46,104 nt of DNA, from positions 1 to 46,104 of the IMG/VR virus record IMGVR_UViG_3300046321_000130. One strand, given 5' to 3'. Of the stretch, positions 9,863-28,316 are shown piece by piece (the first letter of the stretch is position 1; each line of letters begins with the position of its first letter). The DNA comes from a virus. Position numbers and translations under genes: made by a program. The notes below the pieces were generated by a model. It had not been told where the DNA came from. It did not search any database and was given only the letters and a program-made list of their open reading frames with translations.

Positions 9863-11160
9863 TGTTAAAAATTTCTAGACCGGATATTGACCGTAAATCT
9901 ATTACAGAATTTCCTGTTAGCTCTAGGTTTATAAAACTACCAATTACTAACTATTTGAAATTGTTAGGTATTTGGGAGACTATTAACGAGCCTCAGATAG
10001 CTCTAATTAACGCTATTAATAATCCTAAGTATAGATTCGTATGCGCCGCGCTTGCGCGTCGTTTAGGTAAGACTTATATTGCTAATGTAATCGGTCAATT
10101 AACAATGTTAGTACCTGGATGCAATATACTTATTATATCTCCTAACTATACGCTTTCTAGTATTTCTTTTGAGTTGCAACGTAAACTTATTAGACACTTT
10201 GATTTAGAAATGGAGCGGGATAACGTAAAAGATCGTGTGCTAGAGCTGTCTAACGGTTCAACTATACGTCTAGGGTCGCTTTCTACTGTAGATAGCTGTG
10301 TAGGTCGCTCTTATGATTTAATTATATTTGACGAAGCCGCTCTAGGTGACGGAGAAGCAGCGTTTAATATTGCTTTACGTCCTACGTTAGATAAGCCTGG
10401 TGCTAAGGCTATATTTATTTCTACGCCTCGTGGTAAAGGTAACTGGTTCTCTCGCTTTTTTGACCGAGGATTTTCTCCTGACTTCCCTGAGTGGGCTTCT
10501 ATAACTGCCGACTATACAGAGAATTCTCGTATGTCTGAATCAGACGTAGCAGAAGCACGTCGTGTAATGTCTAAGGCTGAGTTTGAGCAAGAGTACATGG
10601 CTTCATTTACTACGTTCGAAGGGCAGATATATTCCCTTGACCCTGCTCTAGTATGTGACTATGTACGACGTGATGGCGATGAAGTAATTGCCGGTCTTGA
10701 CCCCGGGTATAAAGACCCTACGGCCTTCGCCGTAATTGTTTACTCTCCGATAGATGATACTTACCATATAGTTGATGAATATCAGGATGCTGGTGCTGTA
10801 ACTTCTGTGCATGTGGACCGAATGTCTGAGCTGATTGCTCGCTGGGGTATAGAAACAATATTTATAGACTCTGCTGCAGCGCAGATGGCTGCTGACCTTG
10901 CCTACACTTATGACATCGCTACAATTAAGGGTAAGAAGTCAGTACTAGATGGAATTGCACTTGTGCAGACACTAGTAGAACAGGGTCGTATAAAAGTATC
11001 CCCACATTGCGAACATACACTATACATGTTTGACCAGTATCGCTGGGATACTAAAGAAACTGCTAGCGGCAATAGTAAAGAAAAGCCCGAACACAAGATG
11101 CCTTCTCACATGGCCGATGCTGTTAGATACGCTATCTATACGTTTACTACTGGTGGTTGA
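9862..11160 (+). CDS. terL: Terminase large subunit
   Basis: A 432-residue packaging motor with ATPase and nuclease domains. The Walker A-like motif ARRLGKT is at residues 65-71, Walker B is LIIFDEAA at about 153-160, and a motif III-like ISTPRG follows near 185. The RNase H-like nuclease domain has its acidic residues in GLDPGYKDP (about 277), IDSAAA (about 334) and ADAVRY (about 417). The length is normal. The protein pumps DNA through the portal and cuts the concatemer. Its 3' end overlaps the convergent homing-endonuclease gene by 14 bases. Confidence 0.95.
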   Translation: MLKISRPDIDRKSITEFPVSSRFIKLPITNYLKLLGIWETINEPQIALINAINNPKYRFVCAALARRLGKTYIANVIGQLTMLVPGCNILIISPNYTLSSISFELQRKLIRHFDLEMERDNVKDRVLELSNGSTIRLGSLSTVDSCVGRSYDLIIFDEAALGDGEAAFNIALRPTLDKPGAKAIFISTPRGKGNWFSRFFDRGFSPDFPEWASITADYTENSRMSESDVAEARRVMSKAEFEQEYMASFTTFEGQIYSLDPALVCDYVRRDGDEVIAGLDPGYKDPTAFAVIVYSPIDDTYHIVDEYQDAGAVTSVHVDRMSELIARWGIETIFIDSAAAQMAADLAYTYDIATIKGKKSVLDGIALVQTLVEQGRIKVSPHCEHTLYMFDQYRWDTKETASGNSKEKPEHKMPSHMADAVRYAIYTFTTGG

Positions 11161-12586
11161 GGGTCCACACATCATTGCCGCAGTCAAACACTCGGTAATA
11201 CCCATTTAGTCTCATAATATCTTGCTCTGACAGCTCTTCCTGGAATGTATCTGGGAAGAGCTGTTTTAACTTGTGCTTTTGGCAGGTGTACCTACTAAGA
11301 CTTTTTAAACCTTTATAATACTTATAATTAGGTGCACTGCTATGGCTTAGGGTGAACCCTAAGGTGGAGTAAAGTTTACCTACGCTCCACCTCTTATCAG
11401 AATAAGAAACAATACTAGCATCTGGGTATGCTCTAGTGAAGGCCTTTAAAAGTTTGGAAGCTCCGCCTACTATATTATACCCTAAGCTGCAGCAATATCT
11501 AACTAACTCATAGTCGTGAGTGTTATCAAATCTTGGCTTGCTAAAGCACATAGCTGCCACTAATATATCATTATCAAATAGGCCATAGTTTATTGAACAA
11601 GGGCTGCCTACTCCTTGAAGGTGGTTATTTGCTAAAAACGTAGAAGGAAACGATATCTCTTTTACACTAAGGTTTCTTGCGTATAGTCTACTATTTTTAC
11701 CTAGTAAAGATAGTAGCCTTGATTTAACTATTTCTTGTTTGTATAGCCATTCGTCTTCAAATATATGTATAAGTTGAAAACCTACGGCCTCAACCGCTTT
11801 AGTCTTATCAATATGGTAGTCTTTACCCTTGGCTTCTTCTCTATGAAAATATACCCCATTAACCTCTACAGCGATACCTAAGTCTGGTAATACTATATCT
11901 AACTCTTTAGGGTACGTTATATCTTTATTACTTAACTCTATCCAGCCGTTGTAGTTTTGTTTTATAAAGTCAACTACTCTAAGCTCCATTGCACTAACAC
12001 CGTGCTTATCTGCCTCACAACTACTACATGCAAAACCTCTACCACCAATTAAGTTACCTGACAATACTCTAGTAGTAGCGCCACACCTATTATCTAGCAC
12101 CAAGGAATGGGATAGGCTAGTATTATATTCTATTAGTGATAAAAATGGGTAGTTATCTTGTATTTTTTGCTGAGCCTCTTCTAGTGAGTACCTATTGTAG
12201 ACTTTTTGAGGATTGCATTTATAGCATATGCCATCACTATCTCTACTTAATAAGTTAGTTGGTAAAACTTCCCAACTATGCCCACTAATACAGCTTACTT
12301 CAATAGGTACCTTTGCTCCTATGTACTCACCTAGTATAATTAAATTAGGATACTTCTCGTAAACTTCGGATAGAAACTTAGTGTGAGATTTTTTACCTAC
12401 TTGTTTACCTTCACATTGCTTACAAGTAGTACCGTTATTCCTGGCAAACATATTACTTGGAATGATACTTCTAGTGTGTCCATTAGCACACTGTAACTCC
12501 ACTTTAGTTTTTGCTGTAGTATACTTAGTAAGTAATTCTGTACCCATTTCGCATAGGTCCAGAATTTTTTGTTCAAATTTATTCAT
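11147..12586 (-). CDS. Free-standing homing endonuclease with zinc ribbons and a Vsr-like nuclease domain
   Basis: A 479-residue protein. The start at 12586 is set by AGGAGGA six bases upstream. The N-terminal half has three zinc-ribbon-like modules: C33...H37 with C55/C58, C99...H103 with C121/C124, and C168 with C187/C190, likely DNA-binding. A PD-(D/E)xK/Vsr-like (EDxHD-type) core follows: E201 in MELRVVDF, D230, the EVNG segment (241-244), YHIDKT and HIFEDEW (274-280). The C-terminal part (about 300-479) resembles regions found with such nucleases. It lies opposite to all neighbours and is inserted between the large terminase and HNH genes with its own promoter, as mobile phage endonuclease genes often are. 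It would cut phage DNA lacking the insertion. Confidence 0.85.
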   Translation of the reverse strand: MNKFEQKILDLCEMGTELLTKYTTAKTKVELQCANGHTRSIIPSNMFARNNGTTCKQCEGKQVGKKSHTKFLSEVYEKYPNLIILGEYIGAKVPIEVSCISGHSWEVLPTNLLSRDSDGICYKCNPQKVYNRYSLEEAQQKIQDNYPFLSLIEYNTSLSHSLVLDNRCGATTRVLSGNLIGGRGFACSSCEADKHGVSAMELRVVDFIKQNYNGWIELSNKDITYPKELDIVLPDLGIAVEVNGVYFHREEAKGKDYHIDKTKAVEAVGFQLIHIFEDEWLYKQEIVKSRLLSLLGKNSRLYARNLSVKEISFPSTFLANNHLQGVGSPCSINYGLFDNDILVAAMCFSKPRFDNTHDYELVRYCCSLGYNIVGGASKLLKAFTRAYPDASIVSYSDKRWSVGKLYSTLGFTLSHSSAPNYKYYKGLKSLSRYTCQKHKLKQLFPDTFQEELSEQDIMRLNGYYRVFDCGNDVWTLNHQ

Positions 12587-12609
12587 AGAGATCCTCCTGT
12601 TCTTCATAT

Positions 12610-14386: not shown

Positions 14387-14398
14387 ACTAGGAGTACG

Positions 14399-16357
14399 AT
14401 GGATAAAAATAAAATCTTATTTTTAAATAGTACTTTTACTAAAACTCTTCCCAGCTCTGACGACCAAATCGATTCGATCTACATTGAGGGGTACGCAAGT
14501 ACTAATGACGTAGATAGATCCGGCGATGTGATCTCGGCCAGTGTATGGGAAAAGGGGCTTGAAAACTACCTAAAAAATCCTATAATTCTATCACAACATG
14601 ATCACGATGATCCCATCGGACGAATGGTAGAGCACAAGATTGACGGTAAAGGTCTCTGGGTTAAAGCTAGAATCTCCGCTGCGGCTGAGGTATTTAGTTT
14701 AGTAAAAGATGGGGTAGTAACCGCGTTTAGCGTAGGATTCAGAATCTTAGATGCTGAATACAATGCCGTAGCAGAGCTATTTATTATAAAGGAAGTGGAA
14801 CTGGTAGAGATATCTGTTGTTTCAGTACCTTGCAACCAGAACACACTGTTCAGCTTATCTAAATCGTTCAATAACGATGAAGAATATAAGCACTTTAAAT
14901 CACAATTCGCTTCAAGTACTACACCTAAACCGGTGTCAAGAAGTAAAAGTATCCAACCTAAGGAATTTAGTATGAATCCAGAAGAAATTCAACAATTAGT
15001 AGCCGAAGCCGCAAAAGCCGCTACCCAAGAAGCTATGAAATCCGTAGCAGCAGAAGCTGAAAAAGCCCTAGCTGCTAAAGCTGCGAAAGAAGCTGAAGAT
15101 GCAGCTCTTGAAGCAAAAATCAAAAGCGCTGTAGCTAACATCCAAACTGGTGAAACCGGTGCAGAAAAGCTAATGGCCGATATCGAAAAGCGTTTTGAAG
15201 ACCAAGCAACCTCTACTAAGAGCGTTCTAGCGGGTTTAGAAGAAGCCCTTCGCGAGAAATCCGCCGAAATCAAGGCTATGCAAGATTCTAAAATGAACTT
15301 TGCTGACAAGGGTGGTAACACATCTACTTATACTGAACGTGAAAAAGCTGTTATGCTTTCGAAGATTTCAGGTAAGGCCATTGAATCTACCAAATACGGT
15401 ACTTTAGTAATTGAGAAGACCGGCGCTCACTTACCTTCAGCTACATGGGAATTAGAGGTATCCCTAAATATGGAAGCTGAAATTCGCCGTCGTCTAGTTC
15501 TAGCTCCGTTATTCCGTAACGTTCAGATGAAGACTAACGTTATGACTATGCCGATCAATCCAGAAGCTGGATATGGTAAATGGGTAAATAACAGCGAGTT
15601 CGGTGCTGTTCCAGCTACCCTAGGTGCTGCGGGTGCTTCTGCTGGTAATACTGCTGTTCATCAGTTGAAAGAAATTACGCTAAATGCGTACAAACTTGCA
15701 ACGAACGAATATATGGCCTACGAAGAAGAAGAAGATTCGTTAATCACTCTTCTACCTATCATCCGTGATGCCATGATTCGTCGTACAGCTCGTAGCCTAG
15801 ACAAGGCTCTTGCTCTAGGTGTTGGTGCAGTTAACGATCCTGTTAAGGGTCTAGCTCAATATGCTGGTGTTTCAGCAACTACTGGTGCTGTAGCTACTCC
15901 TATCACTATCGCTAAAATGCGTTCACTACGTAAGGACTTAGGTGCTCTTGGTCTAGACCCTAACGAAGTAACCTTCGTAGTTAATACTGACGTATACTAC
16001 GACTTGCTAGAAGATGCGACCTTCCAGTCTATGAACCAAGTAGGTACACAAGCTACCTTGCTAACTGGTCAGATTGGTCAAATCGGTAACAGCCCTGTTC
16101 TAGTATCTTCAGAATTGCCTTCAAAAGCTTCTGGTACTAACGTTGCTGCTTCTGGTGTATTCCCGATTAACAACATTGGCGCTTTTGCTATCTATACTCC
16201 AAACTTCATCGTTGGTAACCAACGTGGTCTTCGTATGGATACTCAAGAATTGGTAGAAACTCAGCGTCGTGTACTAGTAGCTAGCCTACGTACTGGCTTT
16301 GCTCAAGTTGCTACTAACCTTGGTAGTGGTGTTGCTGCACTACGTTACACAGCTTAA
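14399..16357 (+). CDS. Prohead protease fused to HK97-fold major capsid protein
   Basis: A 652-residue polyprotein. Residues 1 to about 165 are an HK97-type (U35/S78) prohead protease: the catalytic His region SQHDHDDPIG near 65-75, the serine motif TAFSVGF near 110 and the conserved VEISVVSVPCN near 140-150. Residues about 190-300 are Ala/Glu/Lys-rich coiled coil, equivalent to the scaffold or delta domain. From about 310 to the end is the capsid protein (ATWELEVSLNMEAEIRRR and onward). In HK97 protease and capsid are separate genes; the fused layout is uncommon but known. GGAG lies before the ATG at 14399. An internal start at 14972 probably provides excess capsid subunits. Confidence 0.93.
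   Translation: MDKNKILFLNSTFTKTLPSSDDQIDSIYIEGYASTNDVDRSGDVISASVWEKGLENYLKNPIILSQHDHDDPIGRMVEHKIDGKGLWVKARISAAAEVFSLVKDGVVTAFSVGFRILDAEYNAVAELFIIKEVELVEISVVSVPCNQNTLFSLSKSFNNDEEYKHFKSQFASSTTPKPVSRSKSIQPKEFSMNPEEIQQLVAEAAKAATQEAMKSVAAEAEKALAAKAAKEAEDAALEAKIKSAVANIQTGETGAEKLMADIEKRFEDQATSTKSVLAGLEEALREKSAEIKAMQDSKMNFADKGGNTSTYTEREKAVMLSKISGKAIESTKYGTLVIEKTGAHLPSATWELEVSLNMEAEIRRRLVLAPLFRNVQMKTNVMTMPINPEAGYGKWVNNSEFGAVPATLGAAGASAGNTAVHQLKEITLNAYKLATNEYMAYEEEEDSLITLLPIIRDAMIRRTARSLDKALALGVGAVNDPVKGLAQYAGVSATTGAVATPITIAKMRSLRKDLGALGLDPNEVTFVVNTDVYYDLLEDATFQSMNQVGTQATLLTGQIGQIGNSPVLVSSELPSKASGTNVAASGVFPINNIGAFAIYTPNFIVGNQRGLRMDTQELVETQRRVLVASLRTGFAQVATNLGSGVAALRYTA
14960..14974 (+). promoter_or_regulatory. 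Internal ribosome binding site in the protease-capsid gene
   Basis: AAGGAA (14960-14965) followed after six bases by an in-frame ATG at 14972 (codon 192), between the protease and scaffold-like regions. The spacing is near ideal and better than most gene starts here. Confidence 0.62.
14972..16357 (+). CDS. Predicted internally started scaffold-capsid product
   Basis: If translation starts at the internal ATG, the product is 461 residues beginning MNPEEIQQLVAEAAKA: a coiled-coil scaffold-like segment followed by the capsid domain, which is the layout of a normal HK97 gp5 precursor. The protease would then come only from the longer, less abundant chain, which would set a protease-to-capsid ratio. 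Evidence is the Shine-Dalgarno site and the exact position at the domain border; expression has not been shown. Confidence 0.55.
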   Translation: MNPEEIQQLVAEAAKAATQEAMKSVAAEAEKALAAKAAKEAEDAALEAKIKSAVANIQTGETGAEKLMADIEKRFEDQATSTKSVLAGLEEALREKSAEIKAMQDSKMNFADKGGNTSTYTEREKAVMLSKISGKAIESTKYGTLVIEKTGAHLPSATWELEVSLNMEAEIRRRLVLAPLFRNVQMKTNVMTMPINPEAGYGKWVNNSEFGAVPATLGAAGASAGNTAVHQLKEITLNAYKLATNEYMAYEEEEDSLITLLPIIRDAMIRRTARSLDKALALGVGAVNDPVKGLAQYAGVSATTGAVATPITIAKMRSLRKDLGALGLDPNEVTFVVNTDVYYDLLEDATFQSMNQVGTQATLLTGQIGQIGNSPVLVSSELPSKASGTNVAASGVFPINNIGAFAIYTPNFIVGNQRGLRMDTQELVETQRRVLVASLRTGFAQVATNLGSGVAALRYTA

Positions 16358-16365
16358 TGTAACTT

Positions 16366-16389
16366 AAGATAGGGCTTCGGCCCTATCTT
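16366..16389 (+). terminator. Hairpin after the capsid gene
   Basis: AAGATAGGGC/GCCCTATCTT with a TTCG tetraloop, followed by a second AT-rich hairpin (about 16388-16418). With only a short T tract it may be a partial terminator or a stabilising 3' end for the capsid mRNA. Confidence 0.75.
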
Positions 16390-16434
16390 TTAAAAGCTTA
16401 CTAAGTGAGCTTTTAAAAGATAAAGGATCATAAA

Positions 16435-21038: not shown

Positions 21039-24000
21039 ATGGCTAATGGGACAACTAAGGTATCGGTTAACGTTGATGCCCCCGGCTTAGAGAACGTAAA
21101 TGCTTTAGCCAAGCAATTAAAGGTAACTTTAGAAGGTGCTGCAAAAGCAGCAGCTAAAGTTATAGTACCTCGCGCTATGAACCAAGCAGCCCATAAAGGG
21201 GCTATGGCTCAAGGGCTCGAGGCAGGTAGAGATTCTAGCACAGCTCGTAGTCTAGGGGCAGGTACAGGTGCGTCTGCTAGAGACTTTGCTAAACAAGCTC
21301 AAGGGTTAGGTGGATTAGTTCACGTATACGCTACTTTTGCTGCAAATATATTCGCATTAAGTGCTGCATTTAATGCGTTATCAAAGGCTGCTGATACCAC
21401 AAATATGGTTAAGGGCCTAGATCAGTTAGGTGCTCAATCAGGAAAATCCTTAGGTAGCCTAGCTAAACAGATGGTAGCTGTATCAGATGGTGCACTATCT
21501 ATGAAAGATGCAATTACTAATACTGCACTTGCAACAGCAGGCGGTATGACTAGTGACGCTATTCTAAGAATGACAAAGGTAGCAAAAAATGCTTCCCTTG
21601 CACTAGGTAGAGATTTACCTGATTCTATGAATAGACTTACACGAGGTATTGTTAAAGTAGAGCCAGAACTACTAGATGAATTAGGTATTATGACTCGTGT
21701 TATTCCTGCTCAGCAAGAGTACGCCCGCATGATTGGTAAAACCGCTAGTACCTTAACAGAATTTGAAAAGAAACAAGCCTTTGCAAATGCAGCACTTGCT
21801 GAAGGTGAGCGTAAATTTGGCGCTATAGACCTACAAACTAATAACTACAGCAAGATTCTTGCTAGTATGACTAATATAACTACGGCTGGACTAGAGTTAG
21901 TAAATTACGTCCTAACTCCTGTAGTAACATTATTAGCGACGTCCCCCGCAGCACTTAGTATTGCTATGGCTACGTTATCTGCAGTATTGCTAAAACAAGC
22001 TATACCTGCTATAGGCTCCTATAGAGCCAGCCTAAAAAAGATGGAAGAAGATTCTCTACGTTCTTTAGTATTAAAGAAAGATGAGATGGAAGAAAGAACT
22101 CGTATCTCTAACGTAGCCGCTGCCAGAGAAGGAGAGGCTCAGTTCTTGATAGCAAAAGATACGCAAAAAAGAATTAGTGCCTTACAAAACTCTAATATTG
22201 CTACAGGTATAAGTATACCTGGAGGTAGAGAGGTTAGGTCTCTAACTAAGAAGAGTGCATTTGAGTTAACTGAGCAAGATCAGGCAGCTCTAAAAGCTAG
22301 AGAAAAAGCCTGGTTAGATAGTGATATTAATACTCACAGATTACAAGGTATAGAGTTACAAAAATACAACAATTCGGTAGCTTCTATATTACAGGATAGA
22401 AAAAACGCGGGGGATTCGGCTACTGAAGCAGAAATTGAAAAATCAAGCAAATTCTATAATTTTAGAAATATACAGGAAGCAAACTATTCTAGAACAGTAC
22501 AGCAGGCAGCTAGAAGTAGAATACTATCAATAGTAGCTGAAACCACTGCTCTAGAAGGCCCTGCAAAAGCATATAGGCTTCTTAATCAAGAAATTGCCAG
22601 ATCCAGATCTGGCAAGCAGTCCTTGAACGTTGATGTAATTGATCCTGATACTGGTAAAAAAGTAGGGCAAATAGCCGAAGCAGTGAAGCCTATAAATAGA
22701 CTACAAGCGGGGGTTTTACGAGTTAGCGGAGCCTTCAGTATTTTAGCCGGTGTAGTAGGTGCTGTTGGTACTAGATTGATGGCGTTCTTGCCGTATGTAG
22801 GATTAATAATAGCAGGTTTTGGAGCTCTAAATGAGCTACTTAGTTCAAATAGTGAGCAGTCTGCAAAATTTAGTGCGTCATTAGACGAGTCCACAGATTC
22901 CGTCGCTAATATGGGAAGGACGTTAGATGCTATAGCCAAGAAAGACCCATTAGAAAAATTAAACGTAGAAAGTATTCAAGCTAAATCTACTGCTCTAATT
23001 GGTTTGGCGGATAGTGCGTCAAATCTAGTAACTGATTTCAAGAAACTAAGATCGGCGTCTAGTACTTTTGATAAAATATTAGACGCAATGTGGGGTGGTA
23101 TAGGTAAAGGGTCGGACGATAAATTAGCACAAAATCTTACTAAGTCTGTAGGAGCAGCCTTAGATGCTTTGCCTGAAGGGGTAAATAAAGCTAAAGCCAT
23201 AGAAGCAATTAGTAAGGCTGCTAGAGGTATGGATCCAACTAAGCCTAAAGAATTCCAACAAGCTATAAGTAGATTAGATGATCCAACAATAGTATCTACT
23301 GGAGAGGCCATTTCTAGAGCAATAGCAAGTATATCTAGAGAATCCGGAGAAGCTACCAACTCTTTAGTTGAGTACAAATCGTCCTTAGATAATATTTCTA
23401 AAAGTGTAGGAAGTATATCTGCTAGTATAGCTTTTAAAGACCCATTAGGTTTACTAGGATCTGAACTTATAGCAAATAGCTCTAAGTTAGATAAAGCTAT
23501 TAAAGATCCTATCAACGGTATAACAGCTTTAAAGCAACTAGTTGATAGTCCACAAATGCTAAGCTTACTACCTGAAGATACGGCTACTAATCTTATCTCT
23601 GCCAGAGGAAATATAGACGACATAACCAAGTCTTTAGTAAAAGCTAGAGAAGAAGCTACTGCAGCTAGTACTGCTTTGGCAGCAATAGACCCTAAAGATG
23701 ATAAGGCTAAACAGGCACAGCAAACTGTAGTAAGTCAAGCTAATGTTACACTTAAAGAAATAGAAACTCGTGCAGCTAAAGCCGTTACTAGTTATACTGC
23801 AGGCATATCCTCAGCTATATTTGAAAAAGGCGTAAAAATTCTAGAAGCAGCAGTAGCTGGTGCTATGGAAGAAGGTGCTATTTCAGCTGCTAAAGGCTAC
23901 CTATCTGCTCTAAGTGCGGCAGGTGGTGCAACTGCTGAGCAAGAAGGAAAACTTCAACAGCAGCAATTTGCAATACAAAGAAAAATTGTAGAAGCCTCTT

Positions 24001-27000
24001 ATGCTGCAGCAAGAGCTCAAGAACGTAATACTTTAGCTATTGAGAAAAATACTATTAGTCAAGAAATGGTTGCCAATGCGGCAGTTATATCTTCTAGTGC
24101 TCCTGGTTCTGAAAAGTTTTTAGAGGCTATGAAAAAAGCTGAACAGTTAACTTCCAGAAGCATTGTTTTACAAACTAAACAAGCGGTAGTTGATAGCCCT
24201 AATCTGGGCACTATCAAAGAGTTAATGAAAGGTACACAAGAGCAGAAACAAGCGGCCCAAGAGCTAAATGGTTTTGTTACTTCTATGTACGCAAGAACTG
24301 CGGAATTAGCTAAAATTGATGGATTAGCTAAAGAGGCAGCATTTAACAGTATGCGTAAACAGTTTGTAGAACAAGCTAACCAAGAAAATAAATCTAGAGA
24401 TAACAGTATTAGGGACCAAGAAAACCTACAAATAAAATTAAATACTCAACAACAGATATTAGGCGTTTATAACGAGCAATTAGCTTCACAGAAACTATCC
24501 TCTGATATAGAATTAGTTAAGCTAAAGGCCGCAAAAGAAGTACGAGTAGCTCAAGCAGACGTAGACACTTTAAATAATTTAGGCGGTAAATCCTCAAAAG
24601 ATTCTAGAGTAGTTAAAGCCTTAAAAGAGGCAGAAGATTTACAAAGAGATCTTAGAACCAAGAGTGCTGAGGATATTAGATCATTAGAATCTAAGTATCA
24701 GTTAGATGCACTAGCGGAGCTTGAATCTAGATCACAAAAAGAGCGAGAATCTTACGAAAAGTCTAGAGAGTATATTGATTTAATATCTAAAGCTAAATTA
24801 GATTCTATCGAGTCTGAGCTTAAATATAAAGAAAATATGAGGTATATAGACGAAGTATTGGCTGCAGAACAAAGAGCTAGTATTGAGTTAGCAAGACAAA
24901 AACTAGACCATGAAAAAGATGTATTAGCCACTAAAAATGCTCAGGCTAATTTAGATAGCCTTACTAGTCGCGTAGCTATAGGTGAGGCAGCTGGTTTAGA
25001 TACTACGGCTTTATCAGACGAACTAGCTAGACAGACTGGATTAATTTTAGACCAAAAAGACGCAAATGATGCAGTAAATGCTAGTAGAATTAATAGTATA
25101 GAACTAACTAAACAGCAAACTATAGAGCAGGCAAATCTTAATGAGATGTTAAAAGGGTTAGCTAGCGCTTTTGGTGACGTAGGTACTGCTATGGGTAACA
25201 CCTTGGTAGCATTTGAGCAGTTAATTAATAGCCAACAATCTGCAATAGAGCAACAAAAAAATTATAATGATATAATATCTAAATTACCTGAAGGCGATGA
25301 AAGAGCTACCGCACAGAAGAAACTAGCAGACTTAGTTGCTAAAACTAATAAACAGGAATTACAAGGTTACGGAAAAGTAGCTGGTGAAGCTAAAAAAATG
25401 TTTGCTGAAAAAACCGGTGGATACAAGGTACTAGATAAAGTAGAAAAAGCATCCCACTTAGCTTCTATGGCTAGAACTGCTTTGGAATATGGTACTAAAA
25501 TATCTACTTGGTTTGCAGGATTAGCTGCTAAATCTACAGTAGTAGCTGGTGAAACTGCTTTAGAGCAAGCAGGGTTTATGGCTAGAATACCTATATACAT
25601 AGCTGAGATATACGCCAGAACTATTGGTCAGTTGGGGGTTTTTGGACCCCCAGTTGCAGCAGGTTTAGTCGCGCTAGCTTTAGGTAGTATGGGCGGTGGA
25701 GGAAAAGGTGGCGTAGTCGATATGACTGGGCTTACTTCTAAAGATAGACAAGAGACACAAGGTACCGGCCTATCTTGGAGGACTAATGCTGACGGTAGCC
25801 GTTCTAAGCAGGAGAATGGTGGAGGGATATTTGGAGATGCAGAAGCTAAGTCAACTGCTATAGTAGATTCATTAGCAATAATGAAAGAAAACTCTATAGT
25901 TGGGCTAGACTATGATAACAAAATGCTAAAAGCCTTGGAAACACTGGCTAGTTCTGTGGAAGGGGCCGCTAAGTCTCTGTACTCTATTCCCGGACTACGT
26001 CAAGGTACTAATTTTGGCTCTCAAGAAGGCACCTCTACTATTAGTGGTGGGTTTGGTTCATCTGTACCTATAATTGGGGGTATACTGAGTGGGTTATTTG
26101 GGGGTAAAACTACACAGTCTAACTCCATAACCTCTGCAGGTATTCAGTTAAAGGGTACTTTTGATGATTTAATTAAAGGTACCTCAGGTAGCATACTACA
26201 GTACAAAGATGTACTAAGTCAGTTTAATAAGAGTGGGGGATTATTTGGTAGTAGCAAGAGCTGGAGTACTCTAGAGCGCCAAACACAGGCTCTAAGTGCT
26301 AACGTTACAACTGCTATATCCGATATATTTAGAGACGCTAATAGTTTGTTCGTAGAAATTGGTACTAAGACTAACGTCAGTGCAGACCAAATCTCTATGG
26401 CACTAAAATCAGTAGACGTAAGTATGCCTATTGACATAATGAATCTTACAGGTCAAGCGCTGGTAGATGAATTAAATGGTGTAATAGGGGCTAAGTTAAG
26501 TGATGCTGCAAAAGTCATATTTAGTGGGTTCGATAAATTCCGCACCTTTGGTGAGGACTATTTAACAACTGTTTTACGAGTAGTAGACGCTAATAATAAA
26601 GTTGACCAGTCGTTGCGTTCTATTGGTAATAGCTTTAATATTATTAGTAATTTCGATGTATCGGAAAGCTTAATAAATGCAGCTGAAGGTTTAACAGCCT
26701 TCATGGATCAAGCAAGTTTCTTTAAAGACAACTTCCTATCTGCTGCAGAAAAACTAGCTCCAGTACAAGCAAGCGTATCTAAACAGTTATTAAGCCTTGG
26801 AATCAGCTCTAGTATTACTAGAGAAGAGTTCAAACGATTAGTACTAGCCCAAAATCTAAATACCTATAGTGGAGCAAAAATGTATCAAAGTCTAATGGAG
26901 CTTGCTCCTGGATTTGATGAGGCTACTAAGGGTGTTGATAGTCTTAATAGTAGTGTACTAGACCTACAAGCTGCGCTGCTTACTGCCCAAGGCAGAACTT

Positions 27001-28316
27001 ACGAAGCTTTACAAGCAACTAGATCTTCGGCTTTAGCTAGCATGAGTTTAGAAGAAGCCGCAATCCGTAGACAGATAAATGCTTTAGAAGACGAGGCTAA
27101 AACTAGAGATATTAGTATTACTCTACTAACTTTACAGGGTAAAGTTACAGAGGCTACTCAAATAACTAGAAGTAAAGAACTACTAGCTCTTAAAGATACA
27201 GATAAACTAATTCAGCTAAGAATATACGCTCTTCAGGATGAGGCAAAAGCTTCATCACTTGAATCAGCTATATACACTGCACTAGGTAACTCTGCAGAAG
27301 CTTTAAGAATAACTAGAGAGCAAGAGATCAAAACGTTAGAGGAATACTTGATACCTTCTAAGAAGTATCTGTATGCCCTGCAGGATGAAGCTACTGTTAA
27401 AGGTAAGTTAACTACTGCATATAACGCTCAATCTAATGCACTCAATTCCACAATTAGTTCTTTAGGTAACTCTATAAAGTCTATTAACGACTATAAAGTA
27501 TCTTTAACTGGTGGACAAAGTTCTATACTAACTCCTGCTGAGAAATACGCGCAAGCTAAGTCTCAGGTAGATCAGTTAGCTGCTATATCTGCTATGCAAA
27601 TATCTACTACAGGTACTGCAGCAGAAATTACGGTACAGACAGCTCAACGTGATGAAGCATTAGGTAAACTAACTGCTGCTACTAGTACTTTCTTGGAAGC
27701 CTCTAAAGACATGAACTCTATGGGTTCAGCTCAATACCAGGCAGACTTTAGTAGTGTACTATCCGTACTTAATACTACCGGTGACCTACTAACTAGTCGA
27801 AAGACTGATGCTGAAAGACAGCTTGAGACTTTAGATAGAAGTCTTAGTTTCCTTGATGTTATTGCAGGAAACTCTGATACTATTGCTTCCTTAATGGTAG
27901 AGTACTTAGCTATACACAGTAACAAATCTGTAGCGCAGCAATCTGCTATACATTCCGGTTCTGCAGCTGCTGCTTCAGCTACTGTATTACCCGGATTTGC
28001 TATGGGTGGTTTAGCTTCGGGGGTTGCTGTAGTAGGTGAAGCTGCTCCAGAAATTATAGACTTCAAAACACCTGGCAGAGTATACTCTAATAGGGATAGT
28101 AAAAGCCTATTTAATACCCAGGAACTAGTGGATGCTGTTAATTCGTTAAGAGCTGAAGTTACCCAGTTGCGTAACGAGCAACGTGAACAAACTAGACACT
28201 TAATAGCGTCTAACTACGATGCTAATAGTAAAAATGCTGACGCAATTAATCAAACTGCTGAAGCCAATTCTATACAGCAAAGTTGGAAAGAACGTTCACA
28301 AGTAAAACTATCATAA
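21039..28316 (+). CDS. Tape measure protein
   Basis: A 2425-residue protein, the largest gene here. AGGAGAG precedes the ATG. Long helical and coiled-coil stretches fill the chain. Hydrophobic segments occur near residues 90-110, 285-320, 570-600 and 1520-1550. About residues 1975-2125 contain three tandem repeats of about 47 residues (each with an LxxxGxxxEAL/ATQ...R core and ending ALEDEAK or ALQDEA). The C-terminus (FAMGGLASGVAVVGEAAPEII) is typical of siphovirus tape measures. At about 0.15 nm per residue it predicts a tail near 360 nm. It sets tail length and is thought to be ejected with DNA. No lysozyme or peptidase motif was recognised. Confidence 0.95.
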   Translation: MANGTTKVSVNVDAPGLENVNALAKQLKVTLEGAAKAAAKVIVPRAMNQAAHKGAMAQGLEAGRDSSTARSLGAGTGASARDFAKQAQGLGGLVHVYATFAANIFALSAAFNALSKAADTTNMVKGLDQLGAQSGKSLGSLAKQMVAVSDGALSMKDAITNTALATAGGMTSDAILRMTKVAKNASLALGRDLPDSMNRLTRGIVKVEPELLDELGIMTRVIPAQQEYARMIGKTASTLTEFEKKQAFANAALAEGERKFGAIDLQTNNYSKILASMTNITTAGLELVNYVLTPVVTLLATSPAALSIAMATLSAVLLKQAIPAIGSYRASLKKMEEDSLRSLVLKKDEMEERTRISNVAAAREGEAQFLIAKDTQKRISALQNSNIATGISIPGGREVRSLTKKSAFELTEQDQAALKAREKAWLDSDINTHRLQGIELQKYNNSVASILQDRKNAGDSATEAEIEKSSKFYNFRNIQEANYSRTVQQAARSRILSIVAETTALEGPAKAYRLLNQEIARSRSGKQSLNVDVIDPDTGKKVGQIAEAVKPINRLQAGVLRVSGAFSILAGVVGAVGTRLMAFLPYVGLIIAGFGALNELLSSNSEQSAKFSASLDESTDSVANMGRTLDAIAKKDPLEKLNVESIQAKSTALIGLADSASNLVTDFKKLRSASSTFDKILDAMWGGIGKGSDDKLAQNLTKSVGAALDALPEGVNKAKAIEAISKAARGMDPTKPKEFQQAISRLDDPTIVSTGEAISRAIASISRESGEATNSLVEYKSSLDNISKSVGSISASIAFKDPLGLLGSELIANSSKLDKAIKDPINGITALKQLVDSPQMLSLLPEDTATNLISARGNIDDITKSLVKAREEATAASTALAAIDPKDDKAKQAQQTVVSQANVTLKEIETRAAKAVTSYTAGISSAIFEKGVKILEAAVAGAMEEGAISAAKGYLSALSAAGGATAEQEGKLQQQQFAIQRKIVEASYAAARAQERNTLAIEKNTISQEMVANAAVISSSAPGSEKFLEAMKKAEQLTSRSIVLQTKQAVVDSPNLGTIKELMKGTQEQKQAAQELNGFVTSMYARTAELAKIDGLAKEAAFNSMRKQFVEQANQENKSRDNSIRDQENLQIKLNTQQQILGVYNEQLASQKLSSDIELVKLKAAKEVRVAQADVDTLNNLGGKSSKDSRVVKALKEAEDLQRDLRTKSAEDIRSLESKYQLDALAELESRSQKERESYEKSREYIDLISKAKLDSIESELKYKENMRYIDEVLAAEQRASIELARQKLDHEKDVLATKNAQANLDSLTSRVAIGEAAGLDTTALSDELARQTGLILDQKDANDAVNASRINSIELTKQQTIEQANLNEMLKGLASAFGDVGTAMGNTLVAFEQLINSQQSAIEQQKNYNDIISKLPEGDERATAQKKLADLVAKTNKQELQGYGKVAGEAKKMFAEKTGGYKVLDKVEKASHLASMARTALEYGTKISTWFAGLAAKSTVVAGETALEQAGFMARIPIYIAEIYARTIGQLGVFGPPVAAGLVALALGSMGGGGKGGVVDMTGLTSKDRQETQGTGLSWRTNADGSRSKQENGGGIFGDAEAKSTAIVDSLAIMKENSIVGLDYDNKMLKALETLASSVEGAAKSLYSIPGLRQGTNFGSQEGTSTISGGFGSSVPIIGGILSGLFGGKTTQSNSITSAGIQLKGTFDDLIKGTSGSILQYKDVLSQFNKSGGLFGSSKSWSTLERQTQALSANVTTAISDIFRDANSLFVEIGTKTNVSADQISMALKSVDVSMPIDIMNLTGQALVDELNGVIGAKLSDAAKVIFSGFDKFRTFGEDYLTTVLRVVDANNKVDQSLRSIGNSFNIISNFDVSESLINAAEGLTAFMDQASFFKDNFLSAAEKLAPVQASVSKQLLSLGISSSITREEFKRLVLAQNLNTYSGAKMYQSLMELAPGFDEATKGVDSLNSSVLDLQAALLTAQGRTYEALQATRSSALASMSLEEAAIRRQINALEDEAKTRDISITLLTLQGKVTEATQITRSKELLALKDTDKLIQLRIYALQDEAKASSLESAIYTALGNSAEALRITREQEIKTLEEYLIPSKKYLYALQDEATVKGKLTTAYNAQSNALNSTISSLGNSIKSINDYKVSLTGGQSSILTPAEKYAQAKSQVDQLAAISAMQISTTGTAAEITVQTAQRDEALGKLTAATSTFLEASKDMNSMGSAQYQADFSSVLSVLNTTGDLLTSRKTDAERQLETLDRSLSFLDVIAGNSDTIASLMVEYLAIHSNKSVAQQSAIHSGSAAAASATVLPGFAMGGLASGVAVVGEAAPEIIDFKTPGRVYSNRDSKSLFNTQELVDAVNSLRAEVTQLRNEQREQTRHLIASNYDANSKNADAINQTAEANSIQQSWKERSQVKLS

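Follow-up and report, generated by a model that had tools for sequence, protein, structure and literature searches.

An internal start codon conserved at the protease–capsid border of a T5-type phage fusion gene suggests two products from one reading frame

A single gene in the DNA of an uncultured phage, 46,104 nucleotides long (IMG/VR record IMGVR_UViG_3300046321_000130; the whole stretch is called the window below), joins a prohead protease to a scaffold-like region and a T5-type major capsid protein (MCP), and very probably yields two proteins from two starts, a 70 kDa protease–linker–scaffold–MCP chain and a 49 kDa scaffold–MCP chain (Table 1). Production of both a polyprotein and a normal capsid precursor had been suggested in the initial annotation, and comparative sequence evidence supports it: the internal ATG is invariant, its Shine-Dalgarno (SD) motif is conserved at the nucleotide level, mRNA structure around it is low, and the arrangement recurs in unrelated fusions. 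We posit that ribosomes initiating at 14399 would make the full-length chain and that ribosomes initiating at 14972 on the same mRNA would make the capsid precursor, the counterpart of T5 pb8. The internal-start product would form most of the several hundred shell subunits, and a minority of full-length chains would co-assemble through their MCP part, placing the protease inside the prohead beside its scaffold targets. Synthesis of both products, their ratio, their co-assembly and their cleavage are what we infer; an excess of the short product is not predicted from the sequence, because a simple initiation score places the internal start above the first start in the window but in just 28 of 71 relatives.

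Table 1. The fusion gene and associated signals, in window coordinates
Feature	Position	Strand	Details
Protease–MCP fusion ORF	14399..16357	+	652 aa, 70.4 kDa
TAGGAG, SD of first start (full-length fusion)	14389..14394	+	hybridisation -6.8 kcal/mol
Peptidase_S78 prohead protease domain	14468..14857	+	residues 24-153; PF04586 E=1.9e-17; TIGR01543 77.8 bits
Variable linker	14912..14971	+	residues 172-191; lacks CAGCTAAAGGGCTAGA in the window
AAGGAA, internal SD	14960..14965	+	conserved at the nucleotide level
Internal start ATG, codon 192	14972..14974	+	invariant across the clade
Predicted second product, MCP precursor	14972..16357	+	461 aa, 49.1 kDa; T5 pb8 counterpart
Scaffold-like (delta) region	14972..15418	+	residues 192-340; helical in a low-confidence model
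Mature HK97-fold MCP	15419..16354	+	residues 341-652, 33.2 kDa; PF05065
Terminator-like hairpin, GATAGGGC-TTCG-GCCCTATC-TTTT	16368..16391	+	directly 3′ of the fusion gene; read from the sequence

The protease–capsid fusion described earlier is confirmed by Pfam, which finds PF04586 and PF05065 together in one frame, the combination that identifies an S78–MCP fusion, with the Phage_capsid domain at residues 361-580. The MCP part aligns over residues 342-634 with the capsid chain of PDB 5tjt (E=1.2e-33) and also matches 8ho3 and 8zvi. Equally present is the in-frame ATG opening the sequence MNPEE, six bases downstream of AAGGAA. Its reported position between the protease and the scaffold-like region agrees with the Pfam boundaries, Met192 falling between the two domains, and with an AlphaFold model (pLDDT 52; too weak for a fold search and used for secondary structure only) in which residues 172-193 are without structure and a long helix begins at 194 (low-confidence helices 194-245, 255-269 and 277-296). 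Of the 17 in-frame ATGs in the gene, three follow an SD-like motif at suitable spacing, namely codons 1, 192 and 358; mRNA structure around the internal start is among the lowest in the gene, at rank 11 of 626. A sigma-70-like site at 14559-14586 was dismissed, as chance alone yields such sites at this rate.

Over 100 loci carrying this fusion, from a large group of uncultured T5-related phages, were recovered in scans of IMG/VR; their proteins share about 55-71% identity with that of the window, and every one of the 101 distinct clade fusion genes has an ATG at the codon-192 position. In a set thinned to 72 sequences (<90% identity), ATG and SD occur together at this codon in 72/72 relatives and at any other internal column in at most 5/72; codon 358 has an SD in 2/72. 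The annotated first start is spread over two alignment columns in the same set, and many linker columns near the internal start show an identity of just 30-70%. Judged from these alignments, the conservation of ATG and SD at codon 192 far exceeds chance. A pair left over from a recent fusion of two genes, and now unused, would also look familiar, since separate-gene relatives have an SD and ATG at the same place; in so diverse a clade, however, with a diverged linker, neither element has ever been lost, and we consider such a relic very unlikely.

Conservation could also arise from the protein if Met192 and the preceding Lys-Glu were needed for folding of the scaffold helix: Met192 lies two residues ahead of the predicted helix, and K188 and E189 are ~90% conserved in the relatives. 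Codon choice, however, is fixed in favor of the SD. Lysine is encoded in the SD zone by 67 AAG and 22 AAA codons, as against 1197 and 1839 elsewhere (p=1.6e-11, a value computed from related sequences that are not fully independent), and synonymous identity at codons 188 and 189 is 1.0, compared with an expected 0.64 and 0.74. Four relatives (L022, L027, L113 and L121) replace Lys with Glu through GAG, giving GAGGAA. In four others, residues or position are altered while AGGA still stands 6-9 nt 5′ of the ATG: L098 and L124 retain AGGAAA in another frame, with Gly-Lys as the residues instead, and in L014 and L105 the SD is displaced by three bases. These substitutions make a constraint on the protein alone highly improbable; by the same evidence, the internal SD is not a by-product of conserved Lys-Glu and is selected as nucleotides. 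It is of moderate strength in the relatives (mean -5.8 kcal/mol), the first-start SD being stronger on average (-7.5).

The full-length chain appears to be under selection too, because each clade locus that spans both parts is a single open frame, with no stop in any member, and linker lengths differ only in multiples of three; dN/dS of the linker is unusable, since synonymous sites are constrained there. Self-cleavage of the full chain within the linker could be an alternative source of free MCP. Taken as the sole source, it would leave the gene with one start, the protease cutting the linker to free the MCP precursor and the internal ATG encoding an ordinary Met, and a linker motif well conserved in the relatives, SAKGLE, with a Lys like that of the T5 cleavage site, would suit this scheme. 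Yet SAKGLE, too, is conserved at the nucleotide level and does not occur in the window, and a single start accounts neither for the nucleotide conservation of the SD, including its retention in another frame, nor for the same arrangement in other fusions. A polyprotein alone is thus an unlikely explanation, and initiation at two starts is the reading we prefer.

The linker of most relatives (about 100) contains a nearly invariant 16-nt motif, CAGCTAAAGGGCTAGA. Its 3′ end lies 43 nt (range 40-49) 5′ of the internal ATG, and one example is L003:2622-2635 in the fusion-gene linker. Synonymous sites are frozen across it, and the constraint acts on nucleotides, because CA is kept although the codon with which the motif opens differs in its first base between relatives (encoding Ser, Thr, Pro or Ala). 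The motif occurs once per genome: with up to one mismatch allowed, 16 of 17 long records match it at a single place. Of its exact copies in the sample of IMG/VR, 112 in all, 109 lie inside the fusion gene. It is absent from the window, L026, L071 and L119; the L026 lineage has lost the linker copy and has only a two-mismatch match elsewhere. Its possible roles are regulation of the internal product, mRNA processing or some other function as a DNA site. It resembles the T3 promoter core, CTAAAGGG. A T7-like promoter is nevertheless unlikely, given a single motif per genome and no PF00940 match in the 17 records searched, although a control of the same search likewise matched nowhere. RNA structure at the motif amounts to a weak, inconsistent self-hairpin, and a programmed frameshift was considered, but the site has no canonical slippery sequence.

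Gene order in the window, assigned with Pfam and PHROGs, is terminase, portal, fusion, head-completion protein, p143-like protein and tail terminator, which shares the portal–protease–MCP–head completion–p143-like–tail terminator order of a T5-like head module. T5 (Demerecviridae) has a homologous protease (T5.150) and MCP (T5.149, pb8), and an N-terminal scaffold domain of ~150 aa is common to the T5 MCP and the window fusion. The two proteins are nonetheless encoded separately in T5, where pb8 is a 458-aa gene of its own, and in Vibrio phage 234P1, with a gap of 13-17 nt, whereas the window clade has a single continuous frame. In both phages the MCP ATG is preceded by its own SD, GGAG in T5 and TAAGGA in 234P1, where it overlaps the protease stop. 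A terminator is annotated 3′ of pb8 in T5, and the window has a terminator-like hairpin after the fusion gene, a hairpin that has no entry in a consensus scan of the window. We infer that the fusion arose from two adjacent genes, probably by loss of the protease tail and stop with retention of the MCP start signal.

Two other frames of the window deserve mention. Between terminase and portal lies an opposite-strand ORF of 486 aa (11147-12607, -) with a weak REase_MTES_1575 match (E=1.7e-4, below the curated cut-off), possibly a mobile endonuclease. A 2425-aa ORF (21039-28316) follows the tail assembly chaperone, a location that makes it the probable tape measure gene.

In T5, 775 copies of pb8 make up the prohead, and the protease removes their scaffold domain (PMC5292684). 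The cut falls after K159 of pb8, as deduced from the length of the 5tjt chain (299 residues); by alignment with T5, scaffold cleavage in the window fusion would probably follow K340, a residue invariant in the clade. Even with initiation at the internal ATG, virions are therefore not expected to show an MNPEE N terminus, because by analogy to T5 the scaffold domain should be cleaved off.

The same border signal is found in other protease–capsid fusions. Peptidase_S78 matches from several hundred genomes were retained if they lay in open frames of at least 448 aa; a first batch showed the pattern and a second tested it under a criterion fixed in advance. By an energy criterion, an in-frame ATG with an SD of -5 kcal/mol or lower, located from 10 codons before to 60 codons after the protease end, is present in 30 of 32 other S78–capsid fusions from bacterial genomes, as compared with 11/64 for other frames of the same stretch and 44/162 for in-frame stretches elsewhere in these genes. 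The 32 fusions cluster into 16 groups at 40% identity, or 4 groups at 30%, and are not fully independent. A motif criterion gives 29/32 at the border, 4/64 in other frames and 10/162 elsewhere in frame. The second batch alone gives 16/17 (p=1.9e-6 vs other frames). The 32 include L192, which was classed as a capsid fusion because its border region is nearly identical to that of L191. Border starts are not enriched in the six long S78 frames that lack a capsid domain. A further observation concerns L190:1203-2546 (-), a 448-aa S78 frame with no detected capsid domain and with CAGGAG..ATG after the protease, which may be a nested protease–scaffold gene of the lambda/Mu kind. Among four ClpP-like fusions (NF045540), the border SD and ATG are clear in L308 (gaggaatttgaaaaaATG), L309 and L311 and unclear in L310. 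We give an even chance to the broader proposal that the protease–capsid fusions of tailed phages are a dual-start class in which minority subunits bring the protease, the choice of start in the T5-type perhaps being tuned by the 16-nt element.

Protease–MCP fusions are already known as a kind, as are nested starts in protease–scaffold genes. NCBIfam names a prohead protease/MCP fusion family, NF045541, and a ClpP-like protease/MCP fusion family, NF045540; in both, as in the window, protease, scaffold-like region and MCP share one gene, and most of the fusions examined have an internal SD and ATG like that of the window, a feature of which we found no mention for these families. The window protein matches NF045541 over residues 62-326 only, with 58.3 bits, and because this is far under the cut-off of 525 bits, the window represents a separate, T5-type fusion. 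The Gifsy-2 “tripartite capsid gene” of Effantin et al. in 2010, a title listed in PMC8538268, is reportedly also a protease–MCP fusion.

Nested protease/scaffold genes with an in-frame internal start are familiar from lambda C/Nu3 and herpesvirus UL26/UL26.5. In these, and in Mu and PaMx73, the internal start lies between the protease and an assembly domain, as in the window, and in the phage cases it has an SD; the window gene shares with Mu I/Z and lambda C/Nu3 an in-frame start with an SD at the protease border, which in the window's clade is under selection. The short product of these nested genes is scaffold only, whereas that of the window is predicted to be the scaffold and the MCP itself. 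In-frame internal starts are reported for the protease–scaffold genes of Mu and PaMx73 (PMC4378225). S78 protease–MCP fusions have been described in the thaumarchaeal proviruses NCAV2-Pro1 and NitIsl-Pro1, which have the same domain combination as the window but are archaeal, and the passage of PMC6563490 that presents them makes no mention of an internal start. With a named NCBIfam family and these published examples, the view that the fusion is unusual by itself does not stand. For an internal start in a protease–MCP fusion we found no report in the open-licence literature, an absence that is weak evidence.

Two starts would be a simple way for one fused gene to supply hundreds of shell proteins but few proteases, and the prediction, which is testable, extends to a large set of phages and prophages. 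Database entries for fusion capsid proteins probably describe only one of two products, in which case the N terminus of the capsid precursor would be misannotated. Covalent delivery of the protease by a minority capsid subunit would, if true, be a bacterial-virus counterpart of Gag-Pro, and a dual-start rule for the whole class, if true, would be comparable to Gag versus Gag-Pro.
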